A DNA stretch of 64,000 bases. Source: a virus. Shown piece after piece: positions 8,861 through 63,719 of the stretch. The stretch lies in IMG/VR virus record IMGVR_UViG_3300028364_000014, positions 62,001-126,000 of that record; one strand, 5' to 3'. A program made the position numbers and the translations under genes. The notes below the pieces were generated by a model. It saw only the letters and a list, made by a program, of their open reading frames with translations, made no database searches and was not told where the DNA came from. Position 1 is the stretch's first letter. The number at the start of each line of letters is the position of its first letter.

Positions 8861-8874
8861 TTAACCTTTAACTT

Positions 8875-9787: not shown

Positions 9788-9890
9788 TTTTTAAGTCTTT
9801 ATAATTAGATGAGACTATAAATATAATCTAATATACTTCTGGTTTAAACACCTAAGTATACGTGTTCTTTCATAGAGAACTCTCCTGAAT

Positions 9891-20945: not shown

Positions 20946-21128
20946 ATGGAAAAACAAATTGAAAATCAAAAAAAAATCTTTAGTGTAGTTAAATGTTTAA
21001 ATAAACTAGATAATTGTGATAAAAAATGTCATGTTTGTGCAGTACAAGAAGGATGTGATAATCTATGTAGTTATGCAGTAAAAAACAATATAAATGAAAA
21101 AACCCAATGTATTTATTGGGAAAAATAA
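20946..21128 (+). CDS. Small cysteine-rich protein, 60 residues
   Basis: Starts at the ATG after GAGGAGAATTAAA. Seven cysteines, with C...CHVCAVQEGCDNLC at the centre, suggest a zinc knuckle or cluster. Unknown role; located directly before rtcB. Confidence 0.55.
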   Translation: MEKQIENQKKIFSVVKCLNKLDNCDKKCHVCAVQEGCDNLCSYAVKNNINEKTQCIYWEK

Positions 21129-21168
21129 CAAAAAGAATTTAAAAATACCAGAGACAAAGGAAATTATT

Positions 21169-35588: not shown

Positions 35589-35715
35589 GTTAATGCGGCA
35601 CTTTGGTATAGAGGGTTACATATACCCTTTCTAATCTACTTGTCTATAAAGACCTACTTGGGAAGATTATAAAAGTTAGATTAATATAAACTTGTTCTTA
35701 AAAGGAGAACCGAAA
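35589..35715 (+). ncRNA. Candidate structured RNA next to the Ro60 gene
   Basis: 127-bp gap. GGTAT/ATACC (about 35605-35628) and a long-range TAATCT/AGATTA pairing (about 35632-35685) enclosing CTTGTCTATAAAGAC suggest folding. Bacterial Ro proteins are often encoded beside a Y RNA, so this is the natural place to look. No diagnostic Y-RNA motif was confirmed. Confidence 0.25.
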
Positions 35716-43969: not shown

Positions 43970-44899
43970 ATGACATCAAAAATTATGATGGGAACCGATC
44001 CAGAGTTTTTCATGAGAAGACTAGAAGACAACAAACTTATTTCAGCAGTACCATTTATTGCTGGAGGTAAACATGACCCTATTAAGTTAGAAAAATCTGG
44101 AGGAACACTTCAACATGACAATGTAGCAGTAGAGTTTTCAACAGTTCCAGCAAATTCTCCGCAAACTTTTGTTGACATTCTCCGCGCTACTCTACAAGAA
44201 ACGATTTCTAAGTTGCCTCCTGGTCATGAACTATTGGCTTCAGCTTCTGCTGTATTTGATGATAATCAGCTTAATACTCCTGAAGCGCAGGAGTTTGGAT
44301 GTACACCTGATTATGATGCGTGGGAAGTAAAAGAGAATGACTCACCGACCCATCCAAACGCTAAATTTAGGTCATGTGGTGGACATTTACATATTGGATG
44401 TCTTGATATGGAAGGTAAACTTACACATGAGGATGCAAAATTTCTATTAACTTTTGAAGGTAAGCTCGATATGGTAAAAGGTATGGACCTATTTTTAGGC
44501 ATTATCTCTACTGTACTCGATAGTTCACCTGAAGCAGTTGAGCGCAAGAAGCTTTATGGTAGAGCTGGGTGTCATCGAGGTACACTATATGGTGTAGAAT
44601 ATAGGGCATTGAGTAACTTTTGGACTAAATCACCCATGCTATCCATGCTAATGACTTCTCTTTCGGAAGATGTAGTAGAAGTTATTATCAACGAAAAACT
44701 TGAAGCTTTAATTGAAGAAGTAGGCGCTGAGGATATCCAACGAATCATTAACACTGGTGCAGTAAAAGATGCTGAAAAGATCATAGAAAATGTTCTAACA
44801 GCGTATCTTAGCGAAGATTCAAAGTTCTATCTAGAAGAATGTCTTATTAAATTAGATAAAACAGATACAATTGAGAAGGAATGGTCAATTGGGGCTTAA
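43970..44899 (+). CDS. COOH-NH2 ligase-type 2 family protein
   Basis: 309 residues. GTDPEFFM (about 8-15), HDNVAVEFSTVPA (about 49) and CGGHLHIGC (about 139) match the glutamine-synthetase-fold COOH-NH2 ligases of phages, where acidic and His residues bind Mg-ATP and the carboxylate. They are predicted to form amide bonds between an amine and a carboxylate on a peptide or metabolite. Glutamine amidotransferase genes lie just downstream. The minus-strand HNH gene abuts it, with overlapping stop codons. Confidence 0.8.
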   Translation: MTSKIMMGTDPEFFMRRLEDNKLISAVPFIAGGKHDPIKLEKSGGTLQHDNVAVEFSTVPANSPQTFVDILRATLQETISKLPPGHELLASASAVFDDNQLNTPEAQEFGCTPDYDAWEVKENDSPTHPNAKFRSCGGHLHIGCLDMEGKLTHEDAKFLLTFEGKLDMVKGMDLFLGIISTVLDSSPEAVERKKLYGRAGCHRGTLYGVEYRALSNFWTKSPMLSMLMTSLSEDVVEVIINEKLEALIEEVGAEDIQRIINTGAVKDAEKIIENVLTAYLSEDSKFYLEECLIKLDKTDTIEKEWSIGA

Positions 44900-45639
44900 T
44901 TTTTACACCTAAGCTCATAATACCCACATCCTGGAAGCTTGTGTGCCTTCTTATGACATGTTTTGCATAAAGTAATGGTGTTAGCCACATCATTTCCTAA
45001 ACGTGGATTCTGGGTGTATCCTTCGATGTGATGGCAATGTAGTGGAGCTTCATTTTGAGTTGCTCCACAGATTTGGCACGTCCAGTTATCTTTTTCAAAA
45101 CACATTTGTCTAACTAGTGGATTTACTTCGCGAGAAGATGCAGGTTTGAATCCTTTAGGGTATTTAATTTGTTTGTACACAGGGCAAGCCTCTTTACAGT
45201 TATTTGAGCAGTAAAGAAAATGGTCTTTACCTATAGAGTCTAAAGCCTTTACTCTACTATTAACACTGCATCTATTAGGGATAAAGTATTTTCCGCAATA
45301 CCTACATTTTACTTCTAAAGAAACACCGTCATTAGCTAATCTAGGGAATTCTTCTTTAGTTAATTCACCAATAAATAATTTATATTTTGCATTAGAGTTT
45401 TGGTATGATTTACATCTTATAGAAGTACTAATTTTATTTTCCTTATAGTACTTTTTATATTGTTTTTTATGTTTATTTTTATTTTTTAATCGGTAATTAA
45501 TGATATAATTTTTATTATTCTCACGATCAATTTTTATACATTTTTTACAATAACTAGTTACTCCATCCTTAGTGTTTTTATTTTTATTAAATTCACTATA
45601 ACTTTTTAATTCTTTACATTTACTACACATTTTTTTCAT
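44896..45639 (-). CDS. HNH homing endonuclease, free-standing (copy 1)
   Basis: 247 residues on the minus strand, against the local operon. N-terminal CSKC...CKKC zinc finger (about 4-34), a Lys/Asn/Tyr-rich linker, a KCRYCGKYFIPN finger, and a C-terminal HNH nuclease (CQICGA, LHCHHIEGYTQNP, ITLCKTCHKKAH). The C-terminal 100 residues are nearly identical in pattern to the gene at 54546. Its stop overlaps the stop of the COOH-NH2 ligase gene. Confidence 0.85.
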   Translation of the reverse strand: MKKMCSKCKELKSYSEFNKNKNTKDGVTSYCKKCIKIDRENNKNYIINYRLKNKNKHKKQYKKYYKENKISTSIRCKSYQNSNAKYKLFIGELTKEEFPRLANDGVSLEVKCRYCGKYFIPNRCSVNSRVKALDSIGKDHFLYCSNNCKEACPVYKQIKYPKGFKPASSREVNPLVRQMCFEKDNWTCQICGATQNEAPLHCHHIEGYTQNPRLGNDVANTITLCKTCHKKAHKLPGCGYYELRCKN

Positions 45640-45781: not shown

Positions 45782-46660
45782 ATGATTATTGCTATACCCA
45801 CAAATAACGGAGATACCTACAAAGAAGTACCAGTAAGAAAACAAAACGCTTCTTATTGCAAACACGTAGAAAATGCTGGATTTGATCCAATCCTCATTCC
45901 TATGGAGTGTTCTATTGAAGCAGTAGCAGACATGTCCGATGGGCTTCTACTGGCAGGAGGGCTAGATATAAGTCCAATGTATTATGGTTTTAGTAATTTG
46001 GCGTCATTTGGTGTAGACCCTGACAAAGACGCACATGAAAGAGCTCTACTACATGCTTTTATTGCGCTAGGTAAACCAGTGTTTGGAATATGTAGAGGAC
46101 ATCAGCTTATTTTAAGGGAGTTTATGCATGTTACTAATGACATGGATAATATCCTTGAATATGAAGAACATATTAAATATCACGCACAAACAGGTGAGTT
46201 AAATATGGGAAGAAAACACCCTTCTCATATGACGCAGACAGTAATTAATTCTTTATTTACTGAGTCTATAGTAGATAATGATGAAGCTATAGAAAATTTT
46301 CCAGTAAATAGTATGCACCATCAAGCTGTAACCGCAAATATTGTAAAAATGGCAGTCGGTAATGGGAATGTTCCACATGATTTTCAGTATAATATTCCTC
46401 CAGTAAAGGTATATGAGAATTTTGAACTAATTTCCTGGACTAAAAGAGGATATACACAGCCTGATGTACATTCTAAAAATTTCGATAGAACTGATCATAG
46501 AGTAGTTGTTGAGGCAATGAAAATTGATTGGAATAACTCAAAAATTATGGGAGTACAATGGCATCCAGAATGTCTTGGTGATGTTCGTATTATACGTAAT
46601 TTCTTTTTAAATGCTGTTGAAAACATAAATGATGATGCAGCAATTGCAGCTCTAGGCTAA
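45782..46660 (+). CDS. Class I glutamine amidotransferase-like (peptidase C26) protein
   Basis: 292 residues. DGLLLAGGLDISPMYYG, FGICRGHQL (nucleophile Cys) and GVQWHPE (His and Glu) give a complete catalytic triad of the PuuD-like C26 family, which hydrolyses gamma-glutamyl amides. Beside amide ligases it may supply ammonia or trim gamma-glutamyl groups. ATG after ACGGAGAAATAAACAC. Confidence 0.85.
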   Translation: MIIAIPTNNGDTYKEVPVRKQNASYCKHVENAGFDPILIPMECSIEAVADMSDGLLLAGGLDISPMYYGFSNLASFGVDPDKDAHERALLHAFIALGKPVFGICRGHQLILREFMHVTNDMDNILEYEEHIKYHAQTGELNMGRKHPSHMTQTVINSLFTESIVDNDEAIENFPVNSMHHQAVTANIVKMAVGNGNVPHDFQYNIPPVKVYENFELISWTKRGYTQPDVHSKNFDRTDHRVVVEAMKIDWNNSKIMGVQWHPECLGDVRIIRNFFLNAVENINDDAAIAALG

Positions 46661-46911: not shown

Positions 46912-47216
46912 GTAAAAAATCAATAATTACGTCAATTCTTATGGATAATACAAAAATTCCCGCAATAGCTGCTGTACATTACGGTGTAGGGGATGTTCCT
47001 AAAACGAGTACTGGGGATGACGCTGGACAGCATGCAGTTACTTCAATTAAATTTGCAAGAAAATGTTTTGGTCAGGGGGCAGTAATAGATATTCCTTGTT
47101 ATGTAATTGAATTTGAAGATGTAGATGAAAAAGTAATTCTTGCAACTAATAGTATTGCTAGATGGACAATTGGAAACGAAGAAATAGATGCCGTTCCCCC
47201 TTTGGCTGCAGAATAA
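46908..47216 (+). CDS. Hypothetical protein
   Basis: 102 residues, ATGA overlap. Contains IPAIAAVHYGVGDVPKTS and ARKCFGQGAVIDIPCYVIEF. It sits between two amidotransferase-like genes; function unknown. Confidence 0.5.
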   Translation: MSKKSIITSILMDNTKIPAIAAVHYGVGDVPKTSTGDDAGQHAVTSIKFARKCFGQGAVIDIPCYVIEFEDVDEKVILATNSIARWTIGNEEIDAVPPLAAE

Positions 47217-47223
47217 GGAAATA

Positions 47224-47931
47224 ATGAATAATAAAATACTCGTGTTAAATGGTTCTTCTTACGCAACACCTTTTAAGGGGTTGGGTGAAATTGTTATCGA
47301 TATTGATGTGTTTTTGGAAAATCCAGGTGATTTTAAATTAGTGATGTTTACTGGAGGAGAAGACGTTACTCCTTCTTGGTATGGTGAAACAAGCCCTAAT
47401 CATGTATGCTATTATAATGAGCGAAGAGATAAAGAAGAAGCTATTGTATTTAAGTTAGCAGAAAGACGTGGAATACCTATGATGGGTATTTGTAGGGGAA
47501 TTCAATTTCTAAATGTTATGCATGGTGGAAAAATATTCCATAATGTTACTAATCACGCTGGTCCTAGACACATGATGACTCTTGGTAATGGTGAGGAATT
47601 TGTTGTGAATTCTTTTCATCATCAAATGGTAATACCTCCTGAAGATTCAATTGTAATAGCCTACTCGTCTACCCGTAAATCTACAAGCTATATAGGAGAT
47701 AAAGATCTAGAAGTATCTCCTCCTAATGTAGAGGTAGAAGCAGTAGCTTATCCTAATACCAAAAGTGTGGCAGTCCAATATCATCCTGAAATGATGGATA
47801 CGACTTCTAAAGGGTTTCTTTGGTTTAGAGAACTAGCGACTACCCTATTAACAGAAGAAGGTTTCGCTGAAATTATTGAAAAATATTCCTCGGTGAATAA
47901 ATGTCTAAAACAAAGTACGCATCAGCTATAA
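47224..47931 (+). CDS. Second class I glutamine amidotransferase-like protein
   Basis: 235 residues from ATG 47224. FTGGEDVTPSWYG, MGICRGIQF (nucleophile Cys) and VQYHPEM (His, Glu) give the triad. Shorter than the copy at 45782 and only distantly related to it, so not a recent duplication. Confidence 0.8.
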   Translation: MNNKILVLNGSSYATPFKGLGEIVIDIDVFLENPGDFKLVMFTGGEDVTPSWYGETSPNHVCYYNERRDKEEAIVFKLAERRGIPMMGICRGIQFLNVMHGGKIFHNVTNHAGPRHMMTLGNGEEFVVNSFHHQMVIPPEDSIVIAYSSTRKSTSYIGDKDLEVSPPNVEVEAVAYPNTKSVAVQYHPEMMDTTSKGFLWFRELATTLLTEEGFAEIIEKYSSVNKCLKQSTHQL

Positions 47932-48881: not shown

Positions 48882-49304
48882 ATGGGAAAAAGAACAGTAA
48901 CTCTAAAATTTTGGGAAATTGATAACCCGGATTCTAAAAAACCTAGTCAAGCTATGAAAGCACGTTTACTAGGAGTTCTTTCTAGTGAAGAAGTTGCTGC
49001 AACTCTCGCTAATTTTGAAATAGCAGAAAAATTATTTACTAAACCTACTATTAATTTGGATGAAGCAGTGCAAGCGATAGAGGAATTAAATAGTACAAAA
49101 AATAGTACTAATTACGGCCACTTGTTATTTGCAGCCAAGGAATTCAATGAAGTTGAATCATATGGAAAAAGACTGTGTATAACGGGTGCTGTTGACATAC
49201 TTAATCAAACTAGATTTGATAAACTTACCAGACTTATGGATTTAGATGCTACACTTATGGATGGTACGCTTATAAATGTAAAGGAATATAGAAAAGATGA
49301 ATAA
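48882..49304 (+). CDS. Hypothetical protein
   Basis: 140 residues after AAAGGAGTAATTA. Predicted mostly helical. Overlaps the next start by 8 bases. Unrecognised. Confidence 0.5.
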   Translation: MGKRTVTLKFWEIDNPDSKKPSQAMKARLLGVLSSEEVAATLANFEIAEKLFTKPTINLDEAVQAIEELNSTKNSTNYGHLLFAAKEFNEVESYGKRLCITGAVDILNQTRFDKLTRLMDLDATLMDGTLINVKEYRKDE

Positions 49305-50160
49305 AAACTTACTAACATGTAGCCTACATGCCCCAGGTACCCCATTCACAGTTAAAGAAACTATTAAAGACAATACATTTATTCCAGGTACTTATGGTTT
49401 CATTTCTCTTTTGAGTGGTCCAGACTACACACTGCATAATATTGGTTTTTTAAAAGTTATAATTCTCAGAAAAGGTAAAAAAGGAAAGGCTCGTATAAAT
49501 ACTAATAATATTCTTACTCCTTTGTTTCAGTTACCGGAAGATAAATACCCAGAAAAACTAATTCCAACTGAAGAAGAATTAAAATACCTAGTAGGTATTG
49601 AAACGGAAGAAAATCGTGTTATAAATATGTGTGATAAAAATACTTCAGACGATGAGTTTTTAGGGTGGTTATTGGCGCGTACTTTATTTGCTTATGAGTT
49701 AAGTAAAGTCACCTATCCAAGCGATAATAAGATTATGCGGGTATTAGGCATTAATGGTGGACAACGTATGGTTGCATGGTGCAATAAAGGCGCACTTCTT
49801 GAAAAATTCCGTAAAGAAATAGAAAATCGTTTTAATGATGGTGAAATGGATAGAATGTATGGTAAGTATTGTACTCAAGAGGCTAAATTTGAATTACTAA
49901 CGCAATTAAGAAAAGTAGAAGCAAGACTTATTATTCCAAGACTTGAGTATCAAAGACGGGTTAATGAGGTGTTAATGGGCGCACTTAAAATGATGGAGGT
50001 TACAATCCAAGAAGAAAAGGATTTTAATAATAAAGAAAATACCGTAGAAAAAATCATAGCCACCAAAGAATGGGTTAAAACTAATGGTGATGTTATTAAA
50101 TCCGCTATTTATCAGCGTGTTGGATTAATTTCTAAAAACAGAGAAATTTTAAATTTTTAG
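49297..50160 (+). CDS. Hypothetical protein, paralogue of the next gene
   Basis: 287 residues. The N-terminal 75 residues look like a small beta barrel (PGTYGFISLLSG, IGFLKVIILRKG); DDEFLGWLLARTLF in the middle matches SNEFNSWLRCVLYS in the next protein. The equal length and tandem position support duplication. It lies two genes before the RNA polymerase; a transcription role is possible. Confidence 0.5.
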   Translation: MNKNLLTCSLHAPGTPFTVKETIKDNTFIPGTYGFISLLSGPDYTLHNIGFLKVIILRKGKKGKARINTNNILTPLFQLPEDKYPEKLIPTEEELKYLVGIETEENRVINMCDKNTSDDEFLGWLLARTLFAYELSKVTYPSDNKIMRVLGINGGQRMVAWCNKGALLEKFRKEIENRFNDGEMDRMYGKYCTQEAKFELLTQLRKVEARLIIPRLEYQRRVNEVLMGALKMMEVTIQEEKDFNNKENTVEKIIATKEWVKTNGDVIKSAIYQRVGLISKNREILNF

Positions 50161-50169
50161 GAGAAAATT

Positions 50170-51033
50170 ATGCTTATGACTGTTGGGACTAAAGTAGAAG
50201 TAATTGCTTCTACTATTAAAAAAAAGGGAGCTAAACCAAGGGCTGGCAGTCAAGGGTATTGTATAACGAGTGATAAACTTTGTCATATAAATGGACCTAA
50301 TGTAATAGCGGTACCTGCTTCTATTGTTTTTACAAAATTTGGACATCAAACTAAACGTAGAAGTGAATTAAAAAATGTATGCCTTATATACCCTAAAGAT
50401 AAAAGACCAATAAAAAATGTTAAACCATACTTAAATAAATTATTAAAAAACACAAAAGACTATGCATCAATAAATTTTATTATGCGTTCCCTTTGTAATA
50501 AAAAAATGACATCAGCAACAGACTTAATGATAATTAAACCAATAGTAACTTCAGAGAATATCAAAAATTCATCAAACGAATTTAATTCTTGGTTAAGATG
50601 TGTTCTTTATAGTACTAAAGTACGTCAACTATTTATAAGTAAATATAAGGATGAAAGAGCCCTTGTAAGTAAAAATTTTCTAAAAGGATTACCCTTTTCT
50701 ACTGATGTTTTAATAGATATAATTCGCAATAAACATAAATTTATAAAATTAGCAAGTTTTCTATTTAAACACCCGTATAATAAAGTATTAATGAAAAATA
50801 TCGCAGGACTAAATCAATATTTGTTACAAGACGCCATTAATAAAGCAGTATACCAATTAACCGTTACATGGAAAACTGAACAAAATGTAATTAATTCGGC
50901 ATTAACATTAGGTAATTTAGATAGACACTTAACTCAGAAGGAGATAGAGAAATTTAAAGTTCGGTTAAGTCCATCGGCACTTCATGCCTATGAGACTGTA
51001 TGGAACTGGTTAGACGTATTAAAAACATTATAA
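50170..51033 (+). CDS. Hypothetical protein, paralogue of the previous gene
   Basis: 287 residues after TAGGAGAAAATT. Basic; N-terminal barrel-like segment GTKVEVIASTIKKKGAKPRA, then SNEFNSWLRCVLYSTKV. Immediately upstream of the RNA polymerase gene. Confidence 0.5.
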   Translation: MLMTVGTKVEVIASTIKKKGAKPRAGSQGYCITSDKLCHINGPNVIAVPASIVFTKFGHQTKRRSELKNVCLIYPKDKRPIKNVKPYLNKLLKNTKDYASINFIMRSLCNKKMTSATDLMIIKPIVTSENIKNSSNEFNSWLRCVLYSTKVRQLFISKYKDERALVSKNFLKGLPFSTDVLIDIIRNKHKFIKLASFLFKHPYNKVLMKNIAGLNQYLLQDAINKAVYQLTVTWKTEQNVINSALTLGNLDRHLTQKEIEKFKVRLSPSALHAYETVWNWLDVLKTL

Positions 51034-51068: not shown

Positions 51069-54000
51069 ATGACCAGTATTGAAATAACTACACAAGTAGA
51101 AACTATGGCAAATTTGATTAGAGACCAATTTACTTCTAGAACAGAGATTGAAGGTCGTAGGACTGGTAAAGATTTTCGTGGTGCTAAAATGGATATCACT
51201 TTTACTAATGGTCAAATGTGGATTACTGTTGTATTAGAAGATGAAGCACATACTATTACTGTGCCCATTCCTTATATCGAAAATGGGGTTGAATTAATTA
51301 AATCCAATGAAGTTAAACGATCAATATGCAAACATTTTGACGTTACGAATAATATTGAAATTTCATATCTGGATGTTATTCAAAAAATCTTCATTGGTGA
51401 CCCTATTGGGCTTGTTACTAATATAAAAGTAAAGAAAAGTTCCTTTGTTCAACAAATTGCTTATTCAATTTTAAATAAAAATACCTCCATTATCATATAT
51501 AATCTTCAAAAAGCAATCAGTGAAATTGTTAATAAAATGCCTTTACATGAGACATTTATGAACAGTTATATCATGAACCAAAGACTTATGATGGTAGATC
51601 CGGTATTTAATCGTATGTCTTCTCCACAAGATCTTTTAGATTATCAAATCGATAAAAATAAGTATTATTTCAATAACGGATGGACATCTGTTGGATTATC
51701 GGATGGAACTCTTGCGAATAAGAATTATATTTTAAAGAAAGATATCAAAGCTTTAACGGTGTTTGGTATACATCACCATAACCCGCAAAGAAATCTATTT
51801 TCAACCCTTGGTATGAGAGGAGATGAGCTCCCACAATTAAGGTCAGCTTCTGCACAAGAGTTGATTGAATCAGGCATTACACGCACAGGTTGGAATCTGT
51901 TTACTCTTTTTGCGGATGTTCCAGATAATTTTGAGGATCAAGTATTAGTGGATATTTCTCACAAAGATAAAGCTATTATTTCTGAACGGAGATTCCAATG
52001 CTTTGGAGAGATTCTGGTAAAAGAAGGGCAAAGAATTAAATTAGGTGATTCATTAGTTAAATGTTCAGATGGTGAAATTACTTCTTATCAAGTAAAAGCT
52101 GACGAGTCCTGGATACACAAGATTATTAAATCTCACACAGTAGTTGGAGGTGTTAAAACTGAGGTTTATAATGTACTTATAAAATTTAAAAGATTTCTTA
52201 AAGATGCGACTAAACTTACCAACACTCATGGTAATAAGGGTGTAATTAGATTATTTGATCTTGGGTATGCAATTGATCCGGCTACAGGTAAACCCCGTAA
52301 GATAGATGTTATTGTGTCAGCTAAATCTGTAAAGAGACGTAAAAATTATGGTCAAATATTTGAAGCTTTAGTAAATGTAGTACATGAACGTAATACTGCT
52401 GAAGTAAATACACCAGAAATAAGTTCTATCAGTAATTGGTCAAAAAGAGGAGTTGCAGTTACTTCTAAAATTACCTCTAAAGTATTACCAATTAAACCGT
52501 TAATATATGCAGACAATTATACATTCGATGATGAAAAAGAAGCGCAGCTTAAACAAAACTTGATAGATTCTGGTATACCCGAGGATGGTACTTGGAGATG
52601 TGATACTTATGTTGGAGAAATCTACGGAGTTTGTGGTACGGTATTCTGGGGGGTTACCAAAGAACCTGAAGATCAATTGTGGGCAGAGGGGGCTACTGAA
52701 AGAACCAATGGTAAAGATCTTAGAGTTGCTGGTTTAAAATTTTCAACTGTAGAATTTAAAGCACTGGAAACACATTTTGGTATTGACAATGCTGTGTCAA
52801 GAGAAGTTCTTTCTTATACACAAGGTATTGAAAATATTGATGAAACTCTACAGATTCTTAGAAGTCAGTTTGGAATTATTACCAAAAATGTACCAACAAA
52901 GAAAGTATATGAAATAAAATCCGTTGATCAGAGTAACGGTACTATTTTTACTAAAGAATCTTTACTAGATACAGTAGCAGATGAAAATATGTTGAGGGAT
53001 GGGTTTATTTTACATTTACCTGTACAATTTCAAACTGCTGTAGGAATAAAGAACAGTGATTCTTATGAAGGTGCTCCAGTATTTGATCCCGCTATGATGG
53101 ACTGGTCTGTGTTTAAAGTATTATATACTACCGATAAGATATACATTCCAGAAGGCAGTATGCGTAGAAATTGGCGACATAGTACTGGTATGTACGGCAT
53201 GAGTGAAATAGCTGTATTAATAAATAATATTATTATGTTTTCTAATAATTATCTTGCAGAGCCGAATGAGGCCCATCATATTAGAATGTTGTATAACGCA
53301 CTTAGAAATTATTTCTTTAGAATGTCTAGTTCTGTAGGTACAAAGAAAGGAGATGTATCTAGTTATGCGATGTCAGTAAGATATCCTTATTCAGCTAAAG
53401 CTGTTGCAACACTATCTACTACAATACCACCACAAACAATCCAAATTCATAGTGATATGGCAAATTCTCTTAAAGTGACTGAAGGAGATGTAGTAATAGT
53501 TGAAAGGTTCCCTTGTCTTGGTTTTATGGGAATACGTCCTCAAAAAGTAACAATAACAGATGATCCAATGTGTAAATACACAATCAGAGCATCAGGCAAT
53601 AGTTTAGTATCTACTAATTTAGATTTTGATGGTGATGTGATTTATATTGCGGCTTTTCATACACCAGAGGCAGTGGCATTACTACAAAAAGAGTGGCTTA
53701 CTCCTAATCCCGAAACTTGGAAATATATCGATCAATTGAATAAACGAAAGGGAGAACCTTGCATTAATCTTTTAAGTCTCCCTGAGTACGAAATGACTCC
53801 TTTTACAGCCCTAACTTGTGAGGACCAAGCAGGTATTGTTAGAAAATTAACAGGAGTTAAAGCACAAACAGGTCCTGTAATTGCAATGGCCTATAATATC
53901 ATGCGTATTATGGAAAATTCAGGTAATGAGTTAACTAATGCCCAGCAAGCATCTATCGAAATGTTTATTGAAAAGACAGGACAATCTGTATTTGAGCAAA

Positions 54001-54536
54001 AACATGGTGGCATTTCATTGTGTGAAATTGTACTTGAAGCTGTATGTACGGGTGATATTGACACACTAGTAAAAGAAGGTTATGATGCAGAAGTAACTAC
54101 TCTTATCTGTAAAACCATTGATAGAAAAGCCAAGAGTATAGGAATCAATGACCTTAAAGATTATCATTACAAAATAGGTATCCACGGTTCCAATATTGTA
54201 AATCGCATTGTGAAAACTGAAAATAAAGTCTATTTTGCGAGCCGTTCAGATTTAGATACCTATAGTCTTTTAGAATGCCTTTCTTCACCGGTTGTGGATC
54301 TCCCTAGTCGTATATTTGCACTTACTATGTCTGGTAAATACAATAACGAACGTAATTTCTTGATTGAGGAAAAAGAAAGAAAGATGTTATCAGCAATTAA
54401 AGATGATGATTTGAGAAAAGGTTGTACAGATTTGTTTGGACTTATTGATAAAATGATGGGTAATGTTAAAAAAGGAGCAACAATTAGCAATAATGTTAGG
54501 CTAGGTTCTTGCTTGTTGAAAAAAAGTATAAAATAA
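51069..54536 (+). CDS. Single-chain multisubunit-type (two-barrel) RNA polymerase
   Basis: 1155 residues from ATG 51069. It carries hallmarks of both large RNA polymerase subunits in one chain: a beta-type barrel with K382 and NTHGNKG (385-391), as in the beta K..NRHGNKG site, and a beta'-type barrel with LDFDGD (Asp852, 854, 856), the Mg-binding motif. The beta'-like GDVVIVERFPCLGF precedes it. The size and fusion recall YonO of SPbeta and crAss-like phage polymerases rather than the split polymerases of phiKZ-like phages. It would transcribe phage genes independently of host RNA polymerase. Confidence 0.8.
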   Translation: MTSIEITTQVETMANLIRDQFTSRTEIEGRRTGKDFRGAKMDITFTNGQMWITVVLEDEAHTITVPIPYIENGVELIKSNEVKRSICKHFDVTNNIEISYLDVIQKIFIGDPIGLVTNIKVKKSSFVQQIAYSILNKNTSIIIYNLQKAISEIVNKMPLHETFMNSYIMNQRLMMVDPVFNRMSSPQDLLDYQIDKNKYYFNNGWTSVGLSDGTLANKNYILKKDIKALTVFGIHHHNPQRNLFSTLGMRGDELPQLRSASAQELIESGITRTGWNLFTLFADVPDNFEDQVLVDISHKDKAIISERRFQCFGEILVKEGQRIKLGDSLVKCSDGEITSYQVKADESWIHKIIKSHTVVGGVKTEVYNVLIKFKRFLKDATKLTNTHGNKGVIRLFDLGYAIDPATGKPRKIDVIVSAKSVKRRKNYGQIFEALVNVVHERNTAEVNTPEISSISNWSKRGVAVTSKITSKVLPIKPLIYADNYTFDDEKEAQLKQNLIDSGIPEDGTWRCDTYVGEIYGVCGTVFWGVTKEPEDQLWAEGATERTNGKDLRVAGLKFSTVEFKALETHFGIDNAVSREVLSYTQGIENIDETLQILRSQFGIITKNVPTKKVYEIKSVDQSNGTIFTKESLLDTVADENMLRDGFILHLPVQFQTAVGIKNSDSYEGAPVFDPAMMDWSVFKVLYTTDKIYIPEGSMRRNWRHSTGMYGMSEIAVLINNIIMFSNNYLAEPNEAHHIRMLYNALRNYFFRMSSSVGTKKGDVSSYAMSVRYPYSAKAVATLSTTIPPQTIQIHSDMANSLKVTEGDVVIVERFPCLGFMGIRPQKVTITDDPMCKYTIRASGNSLVSTNLDFDGDVIYIAAFHTPEAVALLQKEWLTPNPETWKYIDQLNKRKGEPCINLLSLPEYEMTPFTALTCEDQAGIVRKLTGVKAQTGPVIAMAYNIMRIMENSGNELTNAQQASIEMFIEKTGQSVFEQKHGGISLCEIVLEAVCTGDIDTLVKEGYDAEVTTLICKTIDRKAKSIGINDLKDYHYKIGIHGSNIVNRIVKTENKVYFASRSDLDTYSLLECLSSPVVDLPSRIFALTMSGKYNNERNFLIEEKERKMLSAIKDDDLRKGCTDLFGLIDKMMGNVKKGATISNNVRLGSCLLKKSIK

Positions 54537-54545: not shown

Positions 54546-55475
54546 CTAATCTCTGATGCATTGAAGTTCGTGATAATTGCATCCTGGGAGCTTATGTACC
54601 TCTTTATGACATGTTTTGCATAAAGTAATGGTGTTAGTCACATCATTTCCTAAACGTGGATTCTGGGCGTATCCTTCGATGTGATGGCAATGAAGTGGAG
54701 CTTCCTTTTGGGTGGCTCCGCAAATTTGACATCTCCAATTATCTCGCTCGAAACACATTTGTCTAACTAGAGGATTAACCTCACGGGAGGATGCGGGTTT
54801 GAATCCTTTAGGATAAAGTACTTTTTTATAAATTGGACAAGCTTGTTTGCAGTGGTCAGAGCAATATAAAGACTGTTCTCCAAGTACTTGACCTAATAGT
54901 GATTGAATTCTACGATAAGTTTGTGCCATATAAGGAATAAAATATTTACCGCAGTATCTGCACTTGACTTCTAAAGAAGTACCATTTTTAGCAAGCCTTG
55001 GTGCTTCATCAGTAGTTAATTTATCTTTAAATACTTCATATGTAGCATTAATATTATTACGTTGCTTGCTACGGATAGATATTTCTTCTTTATTATTAAT
55101 TCGATATTGTTTATCTCTTATAGCTATTCTTTCTTTATTATCTTGATAATATTGATCCATTTGTGCTTTTCTTTTTTTTCTCACTAAAGTGAATTTTTCT
55201 GTGTTATCGTCATAATATTGTTTTCGTTGCTTTGCAATTTTTTCCTTATTATCAATGTTATATTGTTTAGCCTTTTTTGCAATACTTTCTTTGTTACTAA
55301 TTTGATATTGTCGTTTTCGTTTAGTTATTTTTTCTTTATTATCAATTTGATATTGTTTTCTTTTTATAAGTATACATTCCTTACATTCTTTTCTATAATC
55401 ATCGATACTATTTTTTCTTTTATAAAACTCGCTTAAATCTTTTAACTCTTTACATTTAGTGCAAATTTTTTTCAT
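54546..55475 (-). CDS. HNH homing endonuclease, free-standing (copy 2) with tandem repeats
   Basis: 309 residues, minus strand. Same plan as copy 1: CTKC...CKEC finger, linker, KCRYCGKYFIP finger, C-terminal HNH (CQICGA, LHCHHIEGYAQNP, CKTCHKEVH). The linker has about six to seven repeats of roughly 15-17 residues on the theme KQY.(I/D)(D/N)NKE.I..(R/K), which accounts for the extra length. Inserted just after the RNA polymerase gene. Confidence 0.85.
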   Translation of the reverse strand: MKKICTKCKELKDLSEFYKRKNSIDDYRKECKECILIKRKQYQIDNKEKITKRKRQYQISNKESIAKKAKQYNIDNKEKIAKQRKQYYDDNTEKFTLVRKKRKAQMDQYYQDNKERIAIRDKQYRINNKEEISIRSKQRNNINATYEVFKDKLTTDEAPRLAKNGTSLEVKCRYCGKYFIPYMAQTYRRIQSLLGQVLGEQSLYCSDHCKQACPIYKKVLYPKGFKPASSREVNPLVRQMCFERDNWRCQICGATQKEAPLHCHHIEGYAQNPRLGNDVTNTITLCKTCHKEVHKLPGCNYHELQCIRD

Positions 55476-55656: not shown

Positions 55657-56040
55657 ATGGCAGTACTTTTAAACATTAATATTTTGAGTGGTACGGTTAT
55701 GGAAGATCCAGTCATCGTAGGTGAGGGTGACGGGGCTTGGGGGTTTTTAAAGCTCATGACTAATTATGTTGGCAGAACACCGGATGGCGGCTATACAGAC
55801 GTGGATCAGATTATTCCACTAGTAGCGGATGAATCTCGTCATGTAAATACAATTAGGAATTATGTCAAGAAAGGCAAAGCTTTGACGGTAGAGACTTATT
55901 ATAGAAGCTGGGTGTCTAATGGACAGGATCAGCATGGATTCTTTATAAAGAAACTCACATTTTCTAAAGCGAATTGGGGATCTGAAAACAACAATAACAA
56001 CCAACGAGGTGGAAATCACCCAGGACTACCGAACAATTAA
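55657..56040 (+). CDS. Second SSB-like OB-fold protein
   Basis: 127 residues. LNINILSGTVMEDPVIV, then FLKLMTNYVGRTPDG and IRNYVKKGKALTVETYYRSW, follow the strand order of an SSB OB fold; a short Asn/Gly tail follows. No acidic tip. A second SSB may serve a different DNA pool or stage than the one at 7946. Confidence 0.7.
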   Translation: MAVLLNINILSGTVMEDPVIVGEGDGAWGFLKLMTNYVGRTPDGGYTDVDQIIPLVADESRHVNTIRNYVKKGKALTVETYYRSWVSNGQDQHGFFIKKLTFSKANWGSENNNNNQRGGNHPGLPNN

Positions 56041-56958: not shown

Positions 56959-57510
56959 ATGTATAAAAACAATAGACGTAAGAAAAAGAAACAAAAACTA
57001 TTACATAAAGCTAAATTTAAACAGATGTTTTGTACTAAATGCGGTATTTGTCCTATCGGAAGTAACCCGAAATTTTGTTATGGTGTATTGTATAAAAACA
57101 ATCCAGAACAATTTACTAATGTAGTTTTTCCTAAAATGATGGAGAATCATGATATATTAAAAGATCAGATAGTTCCAGATTTTGAGGGAAATACACTTTT
57201 AATTACCGCATTTTTTAATAATATACTGTGTGATGACGAAATATGTACAAAGTGTACAAAAAACAAAGATACGGATAAAATATTAAATTGTTTAGCTAAA
57301 TTCAGATTACAGTGTAAACCGGGGTATCAAACTGTACAAGAAATTAAGAATCAATCAAAAAAGGAACGAAAAGCTCAAAATAAAATTAAACAGGCAAATA
57401 ATTTAAAACTTAAAGCTAATGCTACGGTTACTGTATTAATGAGTACTGACGCAGAGTTCCTTGAAGCGGTGGAAAAAATACTTGGAAATAATAATAAGCA
57501 ACAAAATTAA
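56959..57510 (+). CDS. Zinc-binding hypothetical protein
   Basis: 183 residues. Basic N-terminus (NNRRKKKKQKLLHKAKFK), a CTKCGICPIG motif near 31 and CDDEICTKC near 92. The C-terminus overlaps the helicase start region. Function unknown. Confidence 0.5.
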   Translation: MYKNNRRKKKKQKLLHKAKFKQMFCTKCGICPIGSNPKFCYGVLYKNNPEQFTNVVFPKMMENHDILKDQIVPDFEGNTLLITAFFNNILCDDEICTKCTKNKDTDKILNCLAKFRLQCKPGYQTVQEIKNQSKKERKAQNKIKQANNLKLKANATVTVLMSTDAEFLEAVEKILGNNNKQQN

Positions 57511-59962
57511 AATTAAAGATCCGCACCCAGTCATAAAAGAAATTCTTCTTGAACAATTAAAGCACAATAATCCTAAGTATGTAGACGCAGAGAAAATGGG
57601 CAAAAGTACTTATAAGATTGATGAATTTCTATGCAATTATGAATTTGACGAGGATAGTAGCATGTACATACCAAGAGGTATGCGAGGTCCTTTATTAGAG
57701 CATTTAAATGCTTTAGGACTACCGACTCAAATAAGTGATGAACGTGCTATGAACTTTATAGGGTATCTAGACGGATCTAAAATAAATTATCGTAAATACC
57801 AACAACCTGCTATAGAAAAATTGTTACATGAAGGGCCAGAAGGAGTTTTAGTGGCTCCACCAGGGAGTGGTAAAACTGTTATGGGATTAAGTTTAATTCC
57901 TGTACTATTACAAAATACATTATGGTTAACTCATACAGATAGACTATTTAAACAAACTTATGAAAGGTGTTTAGAATTTTTACCAGGACTTAAAGAAGAT
58001 GATATCGGTATGATTGGAGGAGGAAAATGGAAAATTGGTAAAGTACTTACTATAGGAATGATTCCTACACTAGTAAGAAACATTGAAAAATTAAGTGAAT
58101 TAAAAAATCACTTTGGTCTTGTTGTCTTGGATGAGTGTTTAATAGCTGGTACTAAAATAACCATGCTTGATGGTACTTCTTGTAATATAGAAAATGTAAA
58201 AAATGGAGATGTTACGACCTTTGGAAAAGTAACTAATAAATTTGAAAGAAAAACAGATTCGTTAGTAAAACTGAGATGTTCTATAGAAGAACTCGTTGGT
58301 ACGCCTACACATCAATTACCTTTTATATCGAGAAATAAAGTATCAATTAATAAACATACTAATTCGTGGGAGCCTTTCAATGAAAAAGATGTAACTTTTG
58401 AAGAAATAAAAAATATAAATAAAAATGATTATTTATTAGTGAAGGAAGATGCACCACATACAGAGAGATTTAATATAGGAAAAAGAAAAGCAAGATTACT
58501 GTCTTTAATAGCGTGTGATGGACACATAGAAAAGAATTTAAGGTGTCTTCAGGTAGGTATTACAAAAGATAAAGATTGGTTCTTATCCGAAATGTGGCAA
58601 AACACTTTAATCTATAATGATCATAACATACACTTTAGCGACTGTGCTAGAGGAGATTTAATAATAAGAAGTTATTCAAAGAAGTCTATTGCAGATATGC
58701 ATCATTATATTCCAAAAGGTAACAAATCAAAAAACATTCGAGTTCCTCATATAATAATGAATGGAAGTTACGAAGATATAATTAATTACTTACAAGTAGC
58801 TTTTGATTGTGAAGGCAGTGTGACAGACCAAATAACAATAACTATGGCAGGTAAAGATTTTATTAAAGATATACAGTCCTTATTACGTAAATTTGGTATT
58901 ATAGGTAGATTAATTCCTATACCATCTAAAGACCATTTAAGACTGGCAATGACTGGTTATGATGCGTTTTTATTTTGGAAAAAAATAGGATTTTCCATGC
59001 CAAGAAAACAACAAAAATTAAAAGAGCTGTTAAACAAAGCTAGTAAATATCGAAAAATAATAAAATTTCGTGGCATTTCGTATAGATGTGTAAGAGTACT
59101 AAACAAAGAAATAATAAACAAAAGTACAACAGTATATGATTTCACCACGGAACAGCACTTATTTATTGCTAATGGGATATTAAGTTCAAATTGTCATCAT
59201 TGTCCAGCTTCAACATTTTTATCGGTTATCTCGCAATTAAACCCTTATTTCTTGTATGGACTAACAGCTACTGCTTATCGAAGAGACAAGTTAGAGTCTA
59301 TGATGTTTCAATGTCTAGGTCCTATAAGATCAAAAATTACTAAAGATACAGTTGCTGCACATAAGGGTATTATATCTCCTAAAATTATATACACAGCTAT
59401 TAAGCATTTACATAAAGTAGATGGTAATGATATTCCAACTATCTTTAAAAATCATATTATATATAATCATAAGCGTAATGCTCAAATAGTGAAGGATGTA
59501 GTAAGAGAAGCTAAATTAGGTAATTTTTGTATCATAGCTTCTGGGAGGAAAGTCCATTGTGATTTGCTACATGAAATGATTAAAAAAGAGTGGAGTAGGA
59601 CAGGGGTTGCTACTGGAAATTATAGTAAGAAAATAATTGATGGTCAAATTGAGGCATTTAACAACAACGAAATAACGGTACTAATAACAACCTCAGAATT
59701 ACTTGGAGAAGGTTTTGATGTTGATTTTTTAAATAGGTTATTTATTACAACACCCTTTAGAACAGAAGCTAGGGTAGAACAGTTAGTAGGCAGAATTCAG
59801 CGTTTTCACAAAGATAAAAAGGACGCAATTGTTTATGATTATGTCGATGAAGGCATAGGTGTATTAGTTAATCAATTCTATTCTAAGTACGGAGAATGTA
59901 GGAGTAAAGTTTATAAGAGATTGGGACTCGAAATGCTATCCTACGATCAACACGTATTATAA
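57482..59962 (+). CDS. SF2 helicase (UvsW/ComF-like) interrupted by an intein
   Basis: 826-residue precursor if translation starts at TTG 57482 (TTG 57461 also possible; no ATG fits). Motif I APPGSGKT, motif Ia WLTHTDRLFKQ, motif II VVLDE-CHH (DECH, split by the intein), motif III GLTATAYRRD and motif VI QLVGRIQR are all present. After splicing, about 474 residues remain, typical for a compact DNA helicase for branch migration or origin melting. The nearest relative by motif is the UvsW type. Confidence 0.85.
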   Translation: MEIIISNKIKIKDPHPVIKEILLEQLKHNNPKYVDAEKMGKSTYKIDEFLCNYEFDEDSSMYIPRGMRGPLLEHLNALGLPTQISDERAMNFIGYLDGSKINYRKYQQPAIEKLLHEGPEGVLVAPPGSGKTVMGLSLIPVLLQNTLWLTHTDRLFKQTYERCLEFLPGLKEDDIGMIGGGKWKIGKVLTIGMIPTLVRNIEKLSELKNHFGLVVLDECLIAGTKITMLDGTSCNIENVKNGDVTTFGKVTNKFERKTDSLVKLRCSIEELVGTPTHQLPFISRNKVSINKHTNSWEPFNEKDVTFEEIKNINKNDYLLVKEDAPHTERFNIGKRKARLLSLIACDGHIEKNLRCLQVGITKDKDWFLSEMWQNTLIYNDHNIHFSDCARGDLIIRSYSKKSIADMHHYIPKGNKSKNIRVPHIIMNGSYEDIINYLQVAFDCEGSVTDQITITMAGKDFIKDIQSLLRKFGIIGRLIPIPSKDHLRLAMTGYDAFLFWKKIGFSMPRKQQKLKELLNKASKYRKIIKFRGISYRCVRVLNKEIINKSTTVYDFTTEQHLFIANGILSSNCHHCPASTFLSVISQLNPYFLYGLTATAYRRDKLESMMFQCLGPIRSKITKDTVAAHKGIISPKIIYTAIKHLHKVDGNDIPTIFKNHIIYNHKRNAQIVKDVVREAKLGNFCIIASGRKVHCDLLHEMIKKEWSRTGVATGNYSKKIIDGQIEAFNNNEITVLITTSELLGEGFDVDFLNRLFITTPFRTEARVEQLVGRIQRFHKDKKDAIVYDYVDEGIGVLVNQFYSKYGECRSKVYKRLGLEMLSYDQHVL
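58136..59191 (+). mobile_element. Intein with LAGLIDADG-type endonuclease
   Basis: 352 residues inserted between Glu and Cys of the helicase DECH box. Block A CLIAGTKITM begins with Cys1; block B is GTPTHQL; block F/G is VYDFTTEQHLFIANGILSSN ending in Asn, followed by Cys+1 of the host protein. Endonuclease blocks LSLIACDGHIE and YLQVAFDCEGSV are LAGLIDADG-like. The penultimate residue is Ser instead of the common His, which occurs in some active inteins. Confidence 0.9.
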
Positions 59963-59996: not shown

Positions 59997-61193
59997 TTGG
60001 ATAATTTTAAAATAAAAATTTCAAACACAATGACAGAACAAATGGGTTTATATGGTAATGAGAATCATATGATCCGAATACCTAAGGTTTTACGTACTAA
60101 TTTACAACGCAATCTAGGAGAACGTATCCCATTTACCTGTGTTCAAGGTAAGCCTGTGGTATTAGAAATATCAGAAGCATTTAAACATGACTCAGAGCAA
60201 GATAGTAGTGTTTGTTATGTAACTGAAGAAACATTTAATACAATAAATATTGAACGTACTCCGATATACATACCTAAGCAAATAGAAACTATAACTTTGG
60301 GATGTGACCCAGAATTCTTTTTATTGGATAGACAATCGAAAAAATTACTTAGGGCTTATATGTTTTTTAAGAAATTTGGTGAAGTTGGTAATGATGGAAT
60401 ATTAGCAGAATTTAGACCTAAACCAACATTAACCCCACAAGATCTTACTAATAATATTTACAAACTAATTGTGAAAACAAAAAAGCTTTTAAGTACAAAT
60501 TCAATACATAATCCTGATGATATTATACTACATGCAGCTTCAAGTTATGAAGGATATACTGCGGGATTTCATTTACACTACGGATTACCTAAAGAGATGC
60601 TGGGTAGAAAATCAGATAGACTAGTGGTTATTAAAAAAATAATGAGAGCTCTAGATTATTATATAGGTATTCCAGCTATTATGGCGGAAGAAGTAACTGA
60701 TTTTAAACGAAGAGTGAATACATATGTGTCTTATGGTAAACCCAGTGATTTTAGAATTGATCATAGAACTTTAGAATATCGAGTTCCAGGAGGAAGTCTT
60801 TTAAGACATCCTGATCTAACATTAGGATTAATTGCTTTAGGATCTACTGTAATTACTGACCTCATGATTAAAGTGAAGTCTATAACTAATGAATTTAAAC
60901 ACTTAAGTTTTATGAATAATGATGATCGTTTGCAAGAAATATACCCGAATACACCAAGAATAATGACTATGTATGAAATTATATGCTCTCCAAACACAGA
61001 TAGAGCTAAAACATATTTGGATAGTATATATAATGATATAACTAGAATGATTGATTTTAATAAAAACAGCAAGGCAATTAATAAATTATTTACTATTTTG
61101 TCTAATAATAAAGAACTAATTGACCAAGGAATGGAATTAAACTGGAGGAATACCTATGAACAACGACATCACTTTCACCAAACATCCAATTAG
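59997..61193 (+). CDS. COOH-NH2 ligase-type 2 family protein, TTG start
   Basis: 398 residues from TTG 59997 after AAAGGACTTCAAT. An N-terminal domain of about 95 residues is followed by LGCDPEFFLL (about 101), DGILAEFRPKPTLTP and GFHLHYGLP, matching the ligase core of the protein at 43970. The second copy has a different N-terminus, suggesting another substrate or partner. It overlaps the amidoligase gene by 38 bases. Confidence 0.75.
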   Translation: MDNFKIKISNTMTEQMGLYGNENHMIRIPKVLRTNLQRNLGERIPFTCVQGKPVVLEISEAFKHDSEQDSSVCYVTEETFNTINIERTPIYIPKQIETITLGCDPEFFLLDRQSKKLLRAYMFFKKFGEVGNDGILAEFRPKPTLTPQDLTNNIYKLIVKTKKLLSTNSIHNPDDIILHAASSYEGYTAGFHLHYGLPKEMLGRKSDRLVVIKKIMRALDYYIGIPAIMAEEVTDFKRRVNTYVSYGKPSDFRIDHRTLEYRVPGGSLLRHPDLTLGLIALGSTVITDLMIKVKSITNEFKHLSFMNNDDRLQEIYPNTPRIMTMYEIICSPNTDRAKTYLDSIYNDITRMIDFNKNSKAINKLFTILSNNKELIDQGMELNWRNTYEQRHHFHQTSN

Positions 61194-62844
61194 AGACTGT
61201 CTTAACGCCGCAGATGTTGCTTATTGGCGAAGGTCTTTACCCAGACTACTAAAAGTTGGTTTGGAATTTGAATTTAATCTACCAGACAAAGATAACGGTA
61301 CTTGTAAAGGTAAAAGTTTTACTTGTCCTTGTGTAAGTTTTGGTAAAGAAGAACTAACTTGTTGGCAAAAATGTTTGAGAGAGAAAACATGTAGCGCAGA
61401 CAAAAATACTACAAAGTGTAAAAATTTTGATTCTTCTGTATGCACCGATGAAATGTGTGCTGCTTGTGATAAGTATGATTTTCTATGTTCTACATATAGT
61501 TGTTCAAATTACGTATCAGCGTGTAGTACATGTACTGATTTTAAAATGAATTGTAACGATTGCCAGTACCGATTTGATCCAAATAAAAACCCTGAAGCAA
61601 TTAGATCCGCGTGCATTAATGAATTTAATCCTAGTGGAACTTATGGTAAAATTGCAAAATCAGGAGTACATAAAGTTGTAACAGACGGATCTTTGTTAGG
61701 TGGAAAAGGAATGGAAGTTATAACTACTGGAAGAAGAGTAGACTATTGGGAATTTTTCAAGATGTCTGATAAAATTATTAATAATGCTGTTGCTCGTGGT
61801 GCTTATGTAAATGAAAGATGTAGTATTCATATGCATGGATTAGCATCTTATTATGGGCAAGTCAAAGGATTGGACCCTTCTTCTAATTCAAAAATTGATG
61901 AACTAGAAAGATCTGTTCCTGAAATTGTATTGGCTAATTTCCATCAATTGATTAGACGTTACCAAAACGCCATGACTTGGATGTCGGTTGGTTTAGATGA
62001 CCCAGCACATATTACTAGATGGGAAAAATTTAGAATGTCTGTTCTTGATGTCCCGGCTGTAACAGAACATATGAGAAAAGTTAAAGATGCTATTGTTCAA
62101 AAAAGTGGTGGAACCAAGTATGGGCTAGCTAATTATAAATTTTGTGGATTTGACAGTAGTGGACAAGTTAATAGACTACATGTTGAATTACGAGTAATGG
62201 ATGGGTTATTGTCTCCAAGTGCTGTAGCCGCTTTTTCATGTCTATATTATGCACTATTCATAAAAGCTGTGGAATTATCTAGGTATGGTGTAATGGATGC
62301 AGGTAACGAGGCTTGGCTAAAACAATCTACTATTATCAAGAATGCAATAATGAATGGTGCGTCTTCTTGGGATGAAGCGCGGGATACAGGAAGGTTTAGT
62401 GATACTTCCGAATTACATAAATACACAGATATTTTAGTAGCTGAATCGTACGAGATGATTTCAATGCTTAAGCACATACTAAGTTCGATTGGTCCAGCTT
62501 ATGAGGTTCTTGAAAAATTGGCAGAGGCTCCTTGTGGTATTAGAAGATGTGAAGGCAAATCTTGGGAGGATATTGAAAAAGATCTTGCTGTGGAGCTTAC
62601 TGAAGAAGGAGCTACTGAGTATGAGATACAAAAAATTATTGCTACACGCGCAGTTATAAAATCCGCATCTCTTGAAGAGTGGACAAAATGTGTAGCTAAG
62701 CTTCTTAAAGAAAAAAATGAGTTAGAAATTTCAAAGGAATCTGAAGAAGAAATAGCTGATAGAGTCGCTATACATATTGAAGATAGTTATGCTAATGGAA
62801 ATATGTTGTGGGCTGATAAAATTGGTTCAGTTATAGCAGTTTAA
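61156..62844 (+). CDS. Amidoligase-family protein with Cys-rich insertion
   Basis: 562 residues after TGGAGGAATACCT. VGLEFEFNLP (about 31-40) is the conserved first strand of the amidoligase (glutamine-synthetase-like) family; SIHMHGLASYYG and LHVELRVMDG supply later His/Glu positions. Residues about 50-155 contain about 16 cysteines and look like a metal-binding insertion. The C-terminal 150 residues are helical and charged. It should form amide bonds, substrate unknown. Confidence 0.75.
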   Translation: MNNDITFTKHPIRDCLNAADVAYWRRSLPRLLKVGLEFEFNLPDKDNGTCKGKSFTCPCVSFGKEELTCWQKCLREKTCSADKNTTKCKNFDSSVCTDEMCAACDKYDFLCSTYSCSNYVSACSTCTDFKMNCNDCQYRFDPNKNPEAIRSACINEFNPSGTYGKIAKSGVHKVVTDGSLLGGKGMEVITTGRRVDYWEFFKMSDKIINNAVARGAYVNERCSIHMHGLASYYGQVKGLDPSSNSKIDELERSVPEIVLANFHQLIRRYQNAMTWMSVGLDDPAHITRWEKFRMSVLDVPAVTEHMRKVKDAIVQKSGGTKYGLANYKFCGFDSSGQVNRLHVELRVMDGLLSPSAVAAFSCLYYALFIKAVELSRYGVMDAGNEAWLKQSTIIKNAIMNGASSWDEARDTGRFSDTSELHKYTDILVAESYEMISMLKHILSSIGPAYEVLEKLAEAPCGIRRCEGKSWEDIEKDLAVELTEEGATEYEIQKIIATRAVIKSASLEEWTKCVAKLLKEKNELEISKESEEEIADRVAIHIEDSYANGNMLWADKIGSVIAV

Positions 62845-62864: not shown

Positions 62865-63719
62865 ATGTGTTCAATATTTGGAATGGGGTTTTTCAAGAAA
62901 GATAGGATAAACTCCTTTTTACTAAGAAATGCACTAAAGTCATTAACTTTGAATGCTCAAGCTCGTGGTAGAGATGCGACTGGCTTAGCATTCACTACTA
63001 AAACATCAACTGATGTTTTTAAACATAATGTGTCAGCTAAAAAATTCATTGAATTGGAAAATTATCGCGAAGTAGTACGAAAACATACCAAAGATAACAT
63101 ACCCCTTTATTCAATTCTTGGGCACTGCAGAGCTAAGACTTTAGGTACACAATTAAACCCTCTTAATAATCACCCGATCACTACCAATAATATAGTTGGT
63201 GTACATAACGGTGTAATAAGTAACCATGATGGTGTATTTACTACATTAGAAGCAACAGCAGCTAATTATGATGTCAAAAGAGCTGGGCAAGTAGATAGTG
63301 AGGCTATTTTTAGAGCCATTGACCTTTATGCTCATCAGTATAAAAACCCTACTGACTCAGCAGGAAAAGTATTACTTGGGCATATTGCTAATCCGGTAAC
63401 TAAAGCCATACAGTCCGCAACTAGACTACTGAATGGATCGTTTACTTGTGCTATAGTAGATATCGAAAATCCAGAGTGTTTATGGGTATTTAAGCACTCT
63501 AACCCAGTTACTATTTATTTGTATAAAAAAGAAGGATTTTTAGTATTTGCTTCTCTTGAAAATTTTTTAGAAGCTTCTTTAGGGTCTATAGGCTTATCAG
63601 TACCAGAAAAAATAGAACTTACTAATGATACTGGGATTTGTTTTAATTTAATGAAAGGGGTATTTAGTAAATTTAATTTAGCAGAAAGTAGTAATGACTC
63701 AAAAGTCTTAAGTAAATAA
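62865..63719 (+). CDS. Class II glutamine amidotransferase
   Basis: 284 residues. MCSIFGMGF puts the nucleophile Cys at position 2; LGHCRAKTLG and GVHNGVISNHDGVF are the glutamine-binding and oxyanion loops of the Ntn-type GATase II fold (as in asparagine synthase, GlmS). There is no attached synthetase domain, so it should deliver ammonia to, or act with, the neighbouring ligases. Confidence 0.85.
   Translation: MCSIFGMGFFKKDRINSFLLRNALKSLTLNAQARGRDATGLAFTTKTSTDVFKHNVSAKKFIELENYREVVRKHTKDNIPLYSILGHCRAKTLGTQLNPLNNHPITTNNIVGVHNGVISNHDGVFTTLEATAANYDVKRAGQVDSEAIFRAIDLYAHQYKNPTDSAGKVLLGHIANPVTKAIQSATRLLNGSFTCAIVDIENPECLWVFKHSNPVTIYLYKKEGFLVFASLENFLEASLGSIGLSVPEKIELTNDTGICFNLMKGVFSKFNLAESSNDSKVLSK

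Follow-up and report, generated by a model that had tools for sequence, protein, structure and literature searches.

The compact polymerase gene and its neighbors

The window analyzed here is a stretch of 64,000 nucleotides corresponding to bases 62001-126000 of G000, a virus record of 237,910 bases. On its plus strand lies a gene for a single chain of 1155 amino acid residues, P0001 (Table 1), whose ATG at 51069 is preceded by a AAAGGGAG ribosome-binding site; an alternative, longer reading from ATG 51000 would overlap the upstream gene. A first-pass annotation had noticed NTHGNKG with an upstream lysine, and LDFDGD about 460 residues away, in one 1155-residue protein, and this is confirmed: the lysine is K382, NTHGNKG occupies residues 385-391 and LDFDGD residues 851-856, and the starts of the two motifs are 466 residues apart. 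P0001 also matches Pfam Rpb2_6 at residues 337-449 (E 1e-4) and Rpb1_2 at residues 793-868 (E 3e-4), both slightly under the gathering scores, and the two domains were both matched in each of the six family members scanned (best E 1e-8 and 2e-6). Because both Pfam domains are matched, and the same order is kept in 12 diverged relatives, the barrel motifs of P0001 are not a matter of chance.

Table 1. Features of the polymerase locus (positions in the window; residues of P0001)
Feature	Position	Strand	Evidence or remark
287-residue protein, family F10	49297..50160	+	conserved upstream neighbor
287-residue protein, family F9	50170..51033	+	directly upstream of the polymerase; weak N-terminal homology to F10
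Single-chain two-barrel RNA polymerase P0001, 1155 residues	51069..54536	+	Pfam, family conservation, fold, profiles, ribosome-binding site
Beta-type double-psi barrel region, residues 274-434, with FEDQ (288-291), K382, HGNKG (387-391), and GQxxEAL (428-434)	51888..52370	+	hhalign to D181, Arash, and E. coli beta; AF2 strand pattern
Compact flap-like insert between beta-barrel halves, about residues 302-376	51972..52196	+	alignment to D181; AF2 strands
K382 to G391, including NTHGNKG and the catalytic-type lysines K382 and K390	52212..52241	+	both lysines invariant in 13/13 aligned members
Beta'-type double-psi barrel, residues 770-861	53376..53651	+	Pfam Rpb1_2; hhalign to fused beta-beta' chains and P23-45 gp96
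ERFPCLGFM motif, counterpart of beta' NRAPTL	53502..53528	+	invariant in 12/12 full-length members; aligned by hhalign
LDFDGD metal-binding motif (D852, D854, D856)	53619..53636	+	three aspartates invariant in 12/12 full-length members
SVFEQKHGG element, candidate trigger-helix region	53985..54011	+	inferred; F975, K978, and H979 invariant in 12/12
Small conserved neighbor, family F11	55657..56040	+	single-strand-binding-like by eye
SF2 helicase with intein	57461..59962	+	

HGNKG is replaced by SANKG or AANKG in three relatives (L032, L034, and L036) and DFDGD by DHDGD in one (L035), with the catalytic-type lysines and aspartates kept in every case. Such substitutions could speak for a degenerate or non-transcribing relative of the polymerases, for example a primase-like or regulatory protein, but this is highly improbable given that all five predicted catalytic residues (Table 1) are invariant down to 35% identity. 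The flap-like insert is very short, with about 98 residues from ED to HGNKG; it contains strands in the predicted model and was aligned by hhalign to the Vibrio phage D181 chain as VKEGQRIKLGDSL / AKVGKKLHYGDPI. The KHGG of the candidate trigger-helix element is also present in the giant RNA polymerase of contig G009 (see below). The order along P0001 would be a beta barrel of multisubunit type, with two lysines and a short flap-like insert, then a connector region, and then a beta' barrel with Mg-binding aspartates.

Structure prediction agrees with a polymerase fold. In the AF2 model built from 13 sequences (mean pLDDT 79.7, pTM 0.74), the best 50 PDB fold matches are all second-largest (beta-type) subunits of multisubunit RNA polymerases, with E values from 5e-13; an earlier 6-sequence model (pLDDT 52), which this run replaced, had matched mainly beta' subunits, AR9 first. 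In a viral fold library a minor tail protein ranked first (E 1.6e-17), its alignment spanning the full length of P0001; a phage ME3 protein came second, with giant-virus RNA polymerases next. Fold alignments of P0001 with cellular RNA polymerase show 10-16% identity, and full-chain Foldseek TM-scores are low (0.2-0.5), so that homology of the clamp and C-terminal regions is uncertain. Sequence, family conservation, and predicted fold together support P0001 as an RNA polymerase with both barrels in one chain, for which catalytic activity is predicted.

Such an enzyme had been called unusual beside PnuC and NadR-type genes, a view we do not share, the context being an ordinary jumbo-phage one. 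Gene order in the nearer subgroup of relatives is GATase/C26-like genes, F8, F14, F10, F9, RNA polymerase, F11, F6, F12, SF2 helicase, and amidoligase-type genes. The F10 and F9 proteins had been taken for a pair of 287-residue paralogs; both reading frames are real, but pairwise BLAST between the two proteins found nothing significant (E 0.86), and their equal length is a coincidence, since F9 and F10 range from 235 to 328 residues among the relatives. We therefore reject them as equal-length paralogs, and what stays is a weak homology between the family profiles over ~115 residues at the N-terminus (hhalign E 3.6e-5, 71% probability). F9 and F10, neighbors conserved in one subgroup only, could be polymerase-associated factors; the F11 protein had no match in a Pfam scan.

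P0001 could conceivably be one subunit of a larger phage polymerase that needs F9/F10, F18, F11, and the SF2 helicase for promoter recognition or elongation: F9 or F10 immediately precedes the polymerase in one subgroup, as F18 does in another, the helicase family is found downstream in all 12 loci extending far enough, and a Rad25-type SF2 helicase tracks the RNA polymerase genes of group 1 jumbo phages (PMC7824862). We hold this somewhat doubtful, as F9/F10 went undetected by similarity in the distant subgroup, F18 has no similarity to F9/F10, and the gp64 and gp96 fragments of phage P23-45 are active alone (PMC10770324).

Genes for COOH-NH2 ligases (phiEco32-like) and glutamine amidotransferases, at 43970-44899, 45782-46660, 47188-47931, 59997-62844, and 62865-63716 of the window, are conserved around the polymerase in nearly all family loci. 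Inteins with LAGLIDADG domains occur in at least five phage enzymes, including the window helicase and, elsewhere in G000, terminase, a ClpB-like ATPase, ribonucleotide reductase, and DNA polymerase A. Two related HNH proteins, probably homing endonucleases, are encoded on the minus strand, opposite to the module, at 44896-45639 and, directly after the polymerase gene, at 54546-55475. A protein with RRXRR and HNH, IscB-like by eye, lies at 28011-29501 of the window; G000:49929-51485 holds a similar frame, and G000:156611-157834 a TnpB-like one. The window also holds an RNA-repair/NAD-related set (35692-37338, 21094-22557, 19464-20609, 30830-31276, and 13000-14764) whose members are a Ro60/TROVE protein, a two-piece RtcB, an RNA ligase-like protein, a macro domain, and PnuC and NadR-like genes.

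Relatives and lineage of the compact enzyme

The family comprises 13 distinct members including P0001, of which 12 are full length, on contigs of up to 298 kb. The 12 relatives, all on other contigs, are 35-52% identical to P0001, and each of the 12 full-length members is one chain rather than separate beta and beta' subunits, the arrangement by which multisubunit enzymes are defined, although fused derivatives are on record for that clade. Two of the family contigs had been binned into MAGs, under the labels Stahlbacteria and Altiarchaeales, and are probably phage contigs. A plain single-protein search of viral contigs with P0001 found no relative; a barrel fragment recovered one, four were added by a DNA motif scan, and the remainder came from alignment-based scans. 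Since an additional motif scan gave zero new contigs, the set looks saturated in IMG/VR. Tblastn of P0001 against phage records yielded nothing except short, weak barrel matches, and a PF04997 match is absent from the whole G000 record.

Sequence trees of two-barrel RNA polymerases have been judged unreliable outside the DxDxD region (PMC10770324), and we therefore replaced cross-family trees by hhalign comparisons with the family profile, for which reversed decoys reach E 0.03 at best. Specifically, i) a fused or concatenated beta-beta' set of four chains (D181, Arash, E. coli, and MT836236) matched with E 3e-10 over 212 beta' columns, and on the beta side GWNLFTLFADVPDNFEDQ was aligned against NMQVGYMAYKGFNNEDG, followed by a short flap-like stretch and then by KRFLKDATKLTNTHGNKG against EKTLGMGDKITGLHGNKG; ii) the beta barrel matched the single chains of E. 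coli (E 1e-6) and D181 (E 1e-9), the latter being its best known-sequence match, and the ED(Q/S), short flap-like region, and HGNKG barrel of the family align with cellular-type beta; iii) the beta' barrel matched P23-45 gp96 (E 2e-5) and a 4967-residue giant protein of L041 (E 4e-7), and P23-45 gp64 matched weakly (E 0.009); and iv) five YonO-like proteins matched over only 16 columns at DxDGD (E 0.02, near the decoy level), and four crAss-type RNA polymerases gave no match (E 0.08, at decoy level). Similarity to beta and beta' extends outside the DxDGD box in these profiles. The giant protein of L041 (L041:3926-18826) carries NLDFDGD and is another giant phage RNA polymerase; a PHROG tape-measure match is absent from it.

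The first-pass annotation had assigned P0001 to the minimal architecture of YonO and crAss-like phages. P0001 does share with this second clade (YonO/crAss/RNAi-type) a single chain with both barrels, DFDGD, and a phage context, and its beta' barrel matches both gp96, an enzyme associated with that clade, and the L041 giant. Membership of the clade is nonetheless quite improbable: the crAss-type and YonO-like scores stand at or near the decoy level, against E 3e-10 for the beta-beta' chains; the HGNKG barrel, FEDQ, and flap-like insert align to multisubunit beta, to which the best PDB fold matches also belong; and a flap is reported in a review to be absent from YonO/RDR enzymes (PMC7824862). 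A YonO-like enzyme would lack a trigger loop as well, for which P0001 has a candidate motif. As judged from the profiles, the YonO/crAss comparison suits the layout of P0001 and not its ancestry; the beta barrel groups with those of multisubunit polymerases, and for the beta' barrel there is an additional resemblance to the virion-type enzymes of phages.

Had host-type rpoB and rpoC been fused recently, as in Salmonella phage Arash and Vibrio phage D181, HGNKG and a DxDGD motif (DYDGD in both phages) would likewise stand in one chain, and among known sequences the Arash and D181 chains match the beta barrel best. Such a fusion is an unlikely origin for P0001, given that D181 shares 28-30% identity with bacterial beta and beta' whereas P0001 gives only short, weak barrel matches, that the nearest profile relatives are the phages' own giant RNA polymerases, and that the motif spacing is 466 residues as against ~638. 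The Arash and D181 fusions themselves (L013:5667-10244 and L014:7236-10256) are annotated merely as "beta" or "hypothetical".

A giant second polymerase and possible transcription zones

Outside the window, on the minus strand of G000 at 1-9975 (L001:1-9975), a reading frame at least 3325 codons long is cut by the contig end; it carries FEDQ, TTRYGMKG, and LDFDGD, and sits among portal, terminase, and head genes. Its orthologue in G006 (228 kb) has 7488 residues and is 39% identical, and further giant RNA polymerases of 4651 and 4562 residues are encoded by G009 (296 kb) and G008 (298 kb), so that a giant second polymerase is present in G000 and in every other family contig of 228 kb or more, three in all. 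In the giants of G006, G008, and G009 the polymerase part is followed by tape-measure domains (PHROG E 5e-80, 1e-81, and 3e-79; Pfam PhageMin_Tail E 3e-25 in G006 and 2e-25 in G009). The giant frame of G000, where the contig ends before that point, would by comparison with its orthologue also have a tape-measure part. Compared profile to profile, compact and giant enzymes match with E 7e-9 over 307 columns and E 1.6e-14 over 346, so that their homology reaches far outside the barrels; it exceeds that of either giant set to the other known families tested. G006, G008, and G009 each have the pairing known from phage P23-45, a compact RNA polymerase and an RNA polymerase N-terminal to the tape-measure protein.

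Near-identical, perfect TTGACA-N16/17-TATA(A/T)T sites (TACTTGACAAA-N-TATATTAT) number ~20 in G000. Almost all are minus-strand sites within two intervals, 43-54 kb (43.7-53.6 kb) and 158-231 kb; the window, its plus-strand block, and the structural arm at 0-40 kb have none. A motif search of the plus-strand block returned ribosome-binding sites and tRNA-arm-like words only, with no recurrent phage promoter, and sigma-70 region 4 is absent from the whole G000 record. The distribution of sites fits transcription of one genome part by the host polymerase and of the rest by phage polymerases, the absence of such sites being in itself no proof of a phage enzyme.

Since a compact and a giant RNA polymerase occur in one virus, part of the genome is probably transcribed without host machinery. 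We think it probable, from the sequences and by analogy, that P0001 serves as non-virion counterpart to a virion RNA polymerase fused to the tape measure, the strategy of P23-45 carried out with a putatively flap-bearing, multisubunit-type single-chain enzyme. The giant polymerase, tape-measure-fused in the relatives, would be delivered into the cell together with the DNA and begin transcription; P0001, produced inside the cell, would take over the later phage genes as non-virion polymerase; and a separate part of the genome would be served by the host polymerase through ordinary sigma-70-type promoters. The non-virion role of P0001, drawn by analogy with P23-45, is the most likely one; activity, template type, virion packaging, division of labour, and promoter specificity are features that we infer.

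More tentatively, the family may bridge, in evolutionary terms, the two clades into which two-barrel RNA polymerases have been divided, with a multisubunit-like beta barrel (flap-like insert, HGNKG) and a beta' barrel nearest the tape-measure-fused phage enzymes. Were this possibility true, the compact and tape-measure-fused forms would descend from one ancestral single-chain, multisubunit-type phage enzyme, and tape-measure-fused polymerases would either have arisen more than once or derive from multisubunit-type enzymes.

Comparison with known polymerases

Single-chain two-barrel RNA polymerases feature in the debate on the origin of cellular RNA polymerase, and P23-45 provides the sole well-studied tape-measure-fused virion RNA polymerase that we found in the literature. 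To this can be added a jumbo-phage family of 13; in its near-complete members a compact enzyme is accompanied by a giant one, which is tape-measure-fused where the gene is complete (up to 7488 residues). With compact-giant homology visible in sequence and a multisubunit-type barrel, both the duplication idea and the two-clade scheme become testable, and the P0001 family would offer biochemistry a compact, single-chain, cellular-type enzyme.

In P23-45, gp96 is the tape-measure-fused virion RNA polymerase and gp64 the non-virion RNA polymerase, and an ancient duplication has been proposed (PMC10770324). The phages described here resemble P23-45 in having two single-chain two-barrel RNA polymerases, a compact one and another that forms the N-terminal part of the tape-measure protein; but gp64 has 616 residues against the 1155 of P0001, P23-45 has 84 kb whereas these are jumbo phages, and the polymerase part of gp96 lacks HGNKG and has no beta-barrel match to the family. 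Arash gp206 and D181_0267 share the single chain with HGNKG and then DxDGD, but are much closer to bacterial RpoB/RpoC (28-30% identity), have the longer spacing, and showed no detected link to a tape-measure polymerase. P0001 has the flap-like insert, ED(Q/S), two lysines, R-x-P-x-L, and DFDGD of cellular beta and beta', but as two cores fused within 1155 residues and very diverged. The group 1 jumbo-phage RNA polymerases of phiKZ and AR9 are comparable in their multisubunit-type barrels, their virion and non-virion pair, and their SF2 helicase association, but are split over several proteins, in contrast to the one chain per enzyme found here. YonO of SPbeta and gp66 of crAss-like phages are, like P0001, single-chain two-barrel phage RNA polymerases, but P0001 differs in its flap-like insert and has no profile relation to them beyond the DxDGD box. 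We did not find the combination of a multisubunit-type single chain, jumbo phages, and a tape-measure-fused homologue in the literature searched, outside which lay subscription papers and supplements. The kind of enzyme is already known; what may be new is the occurrence of these three features together.
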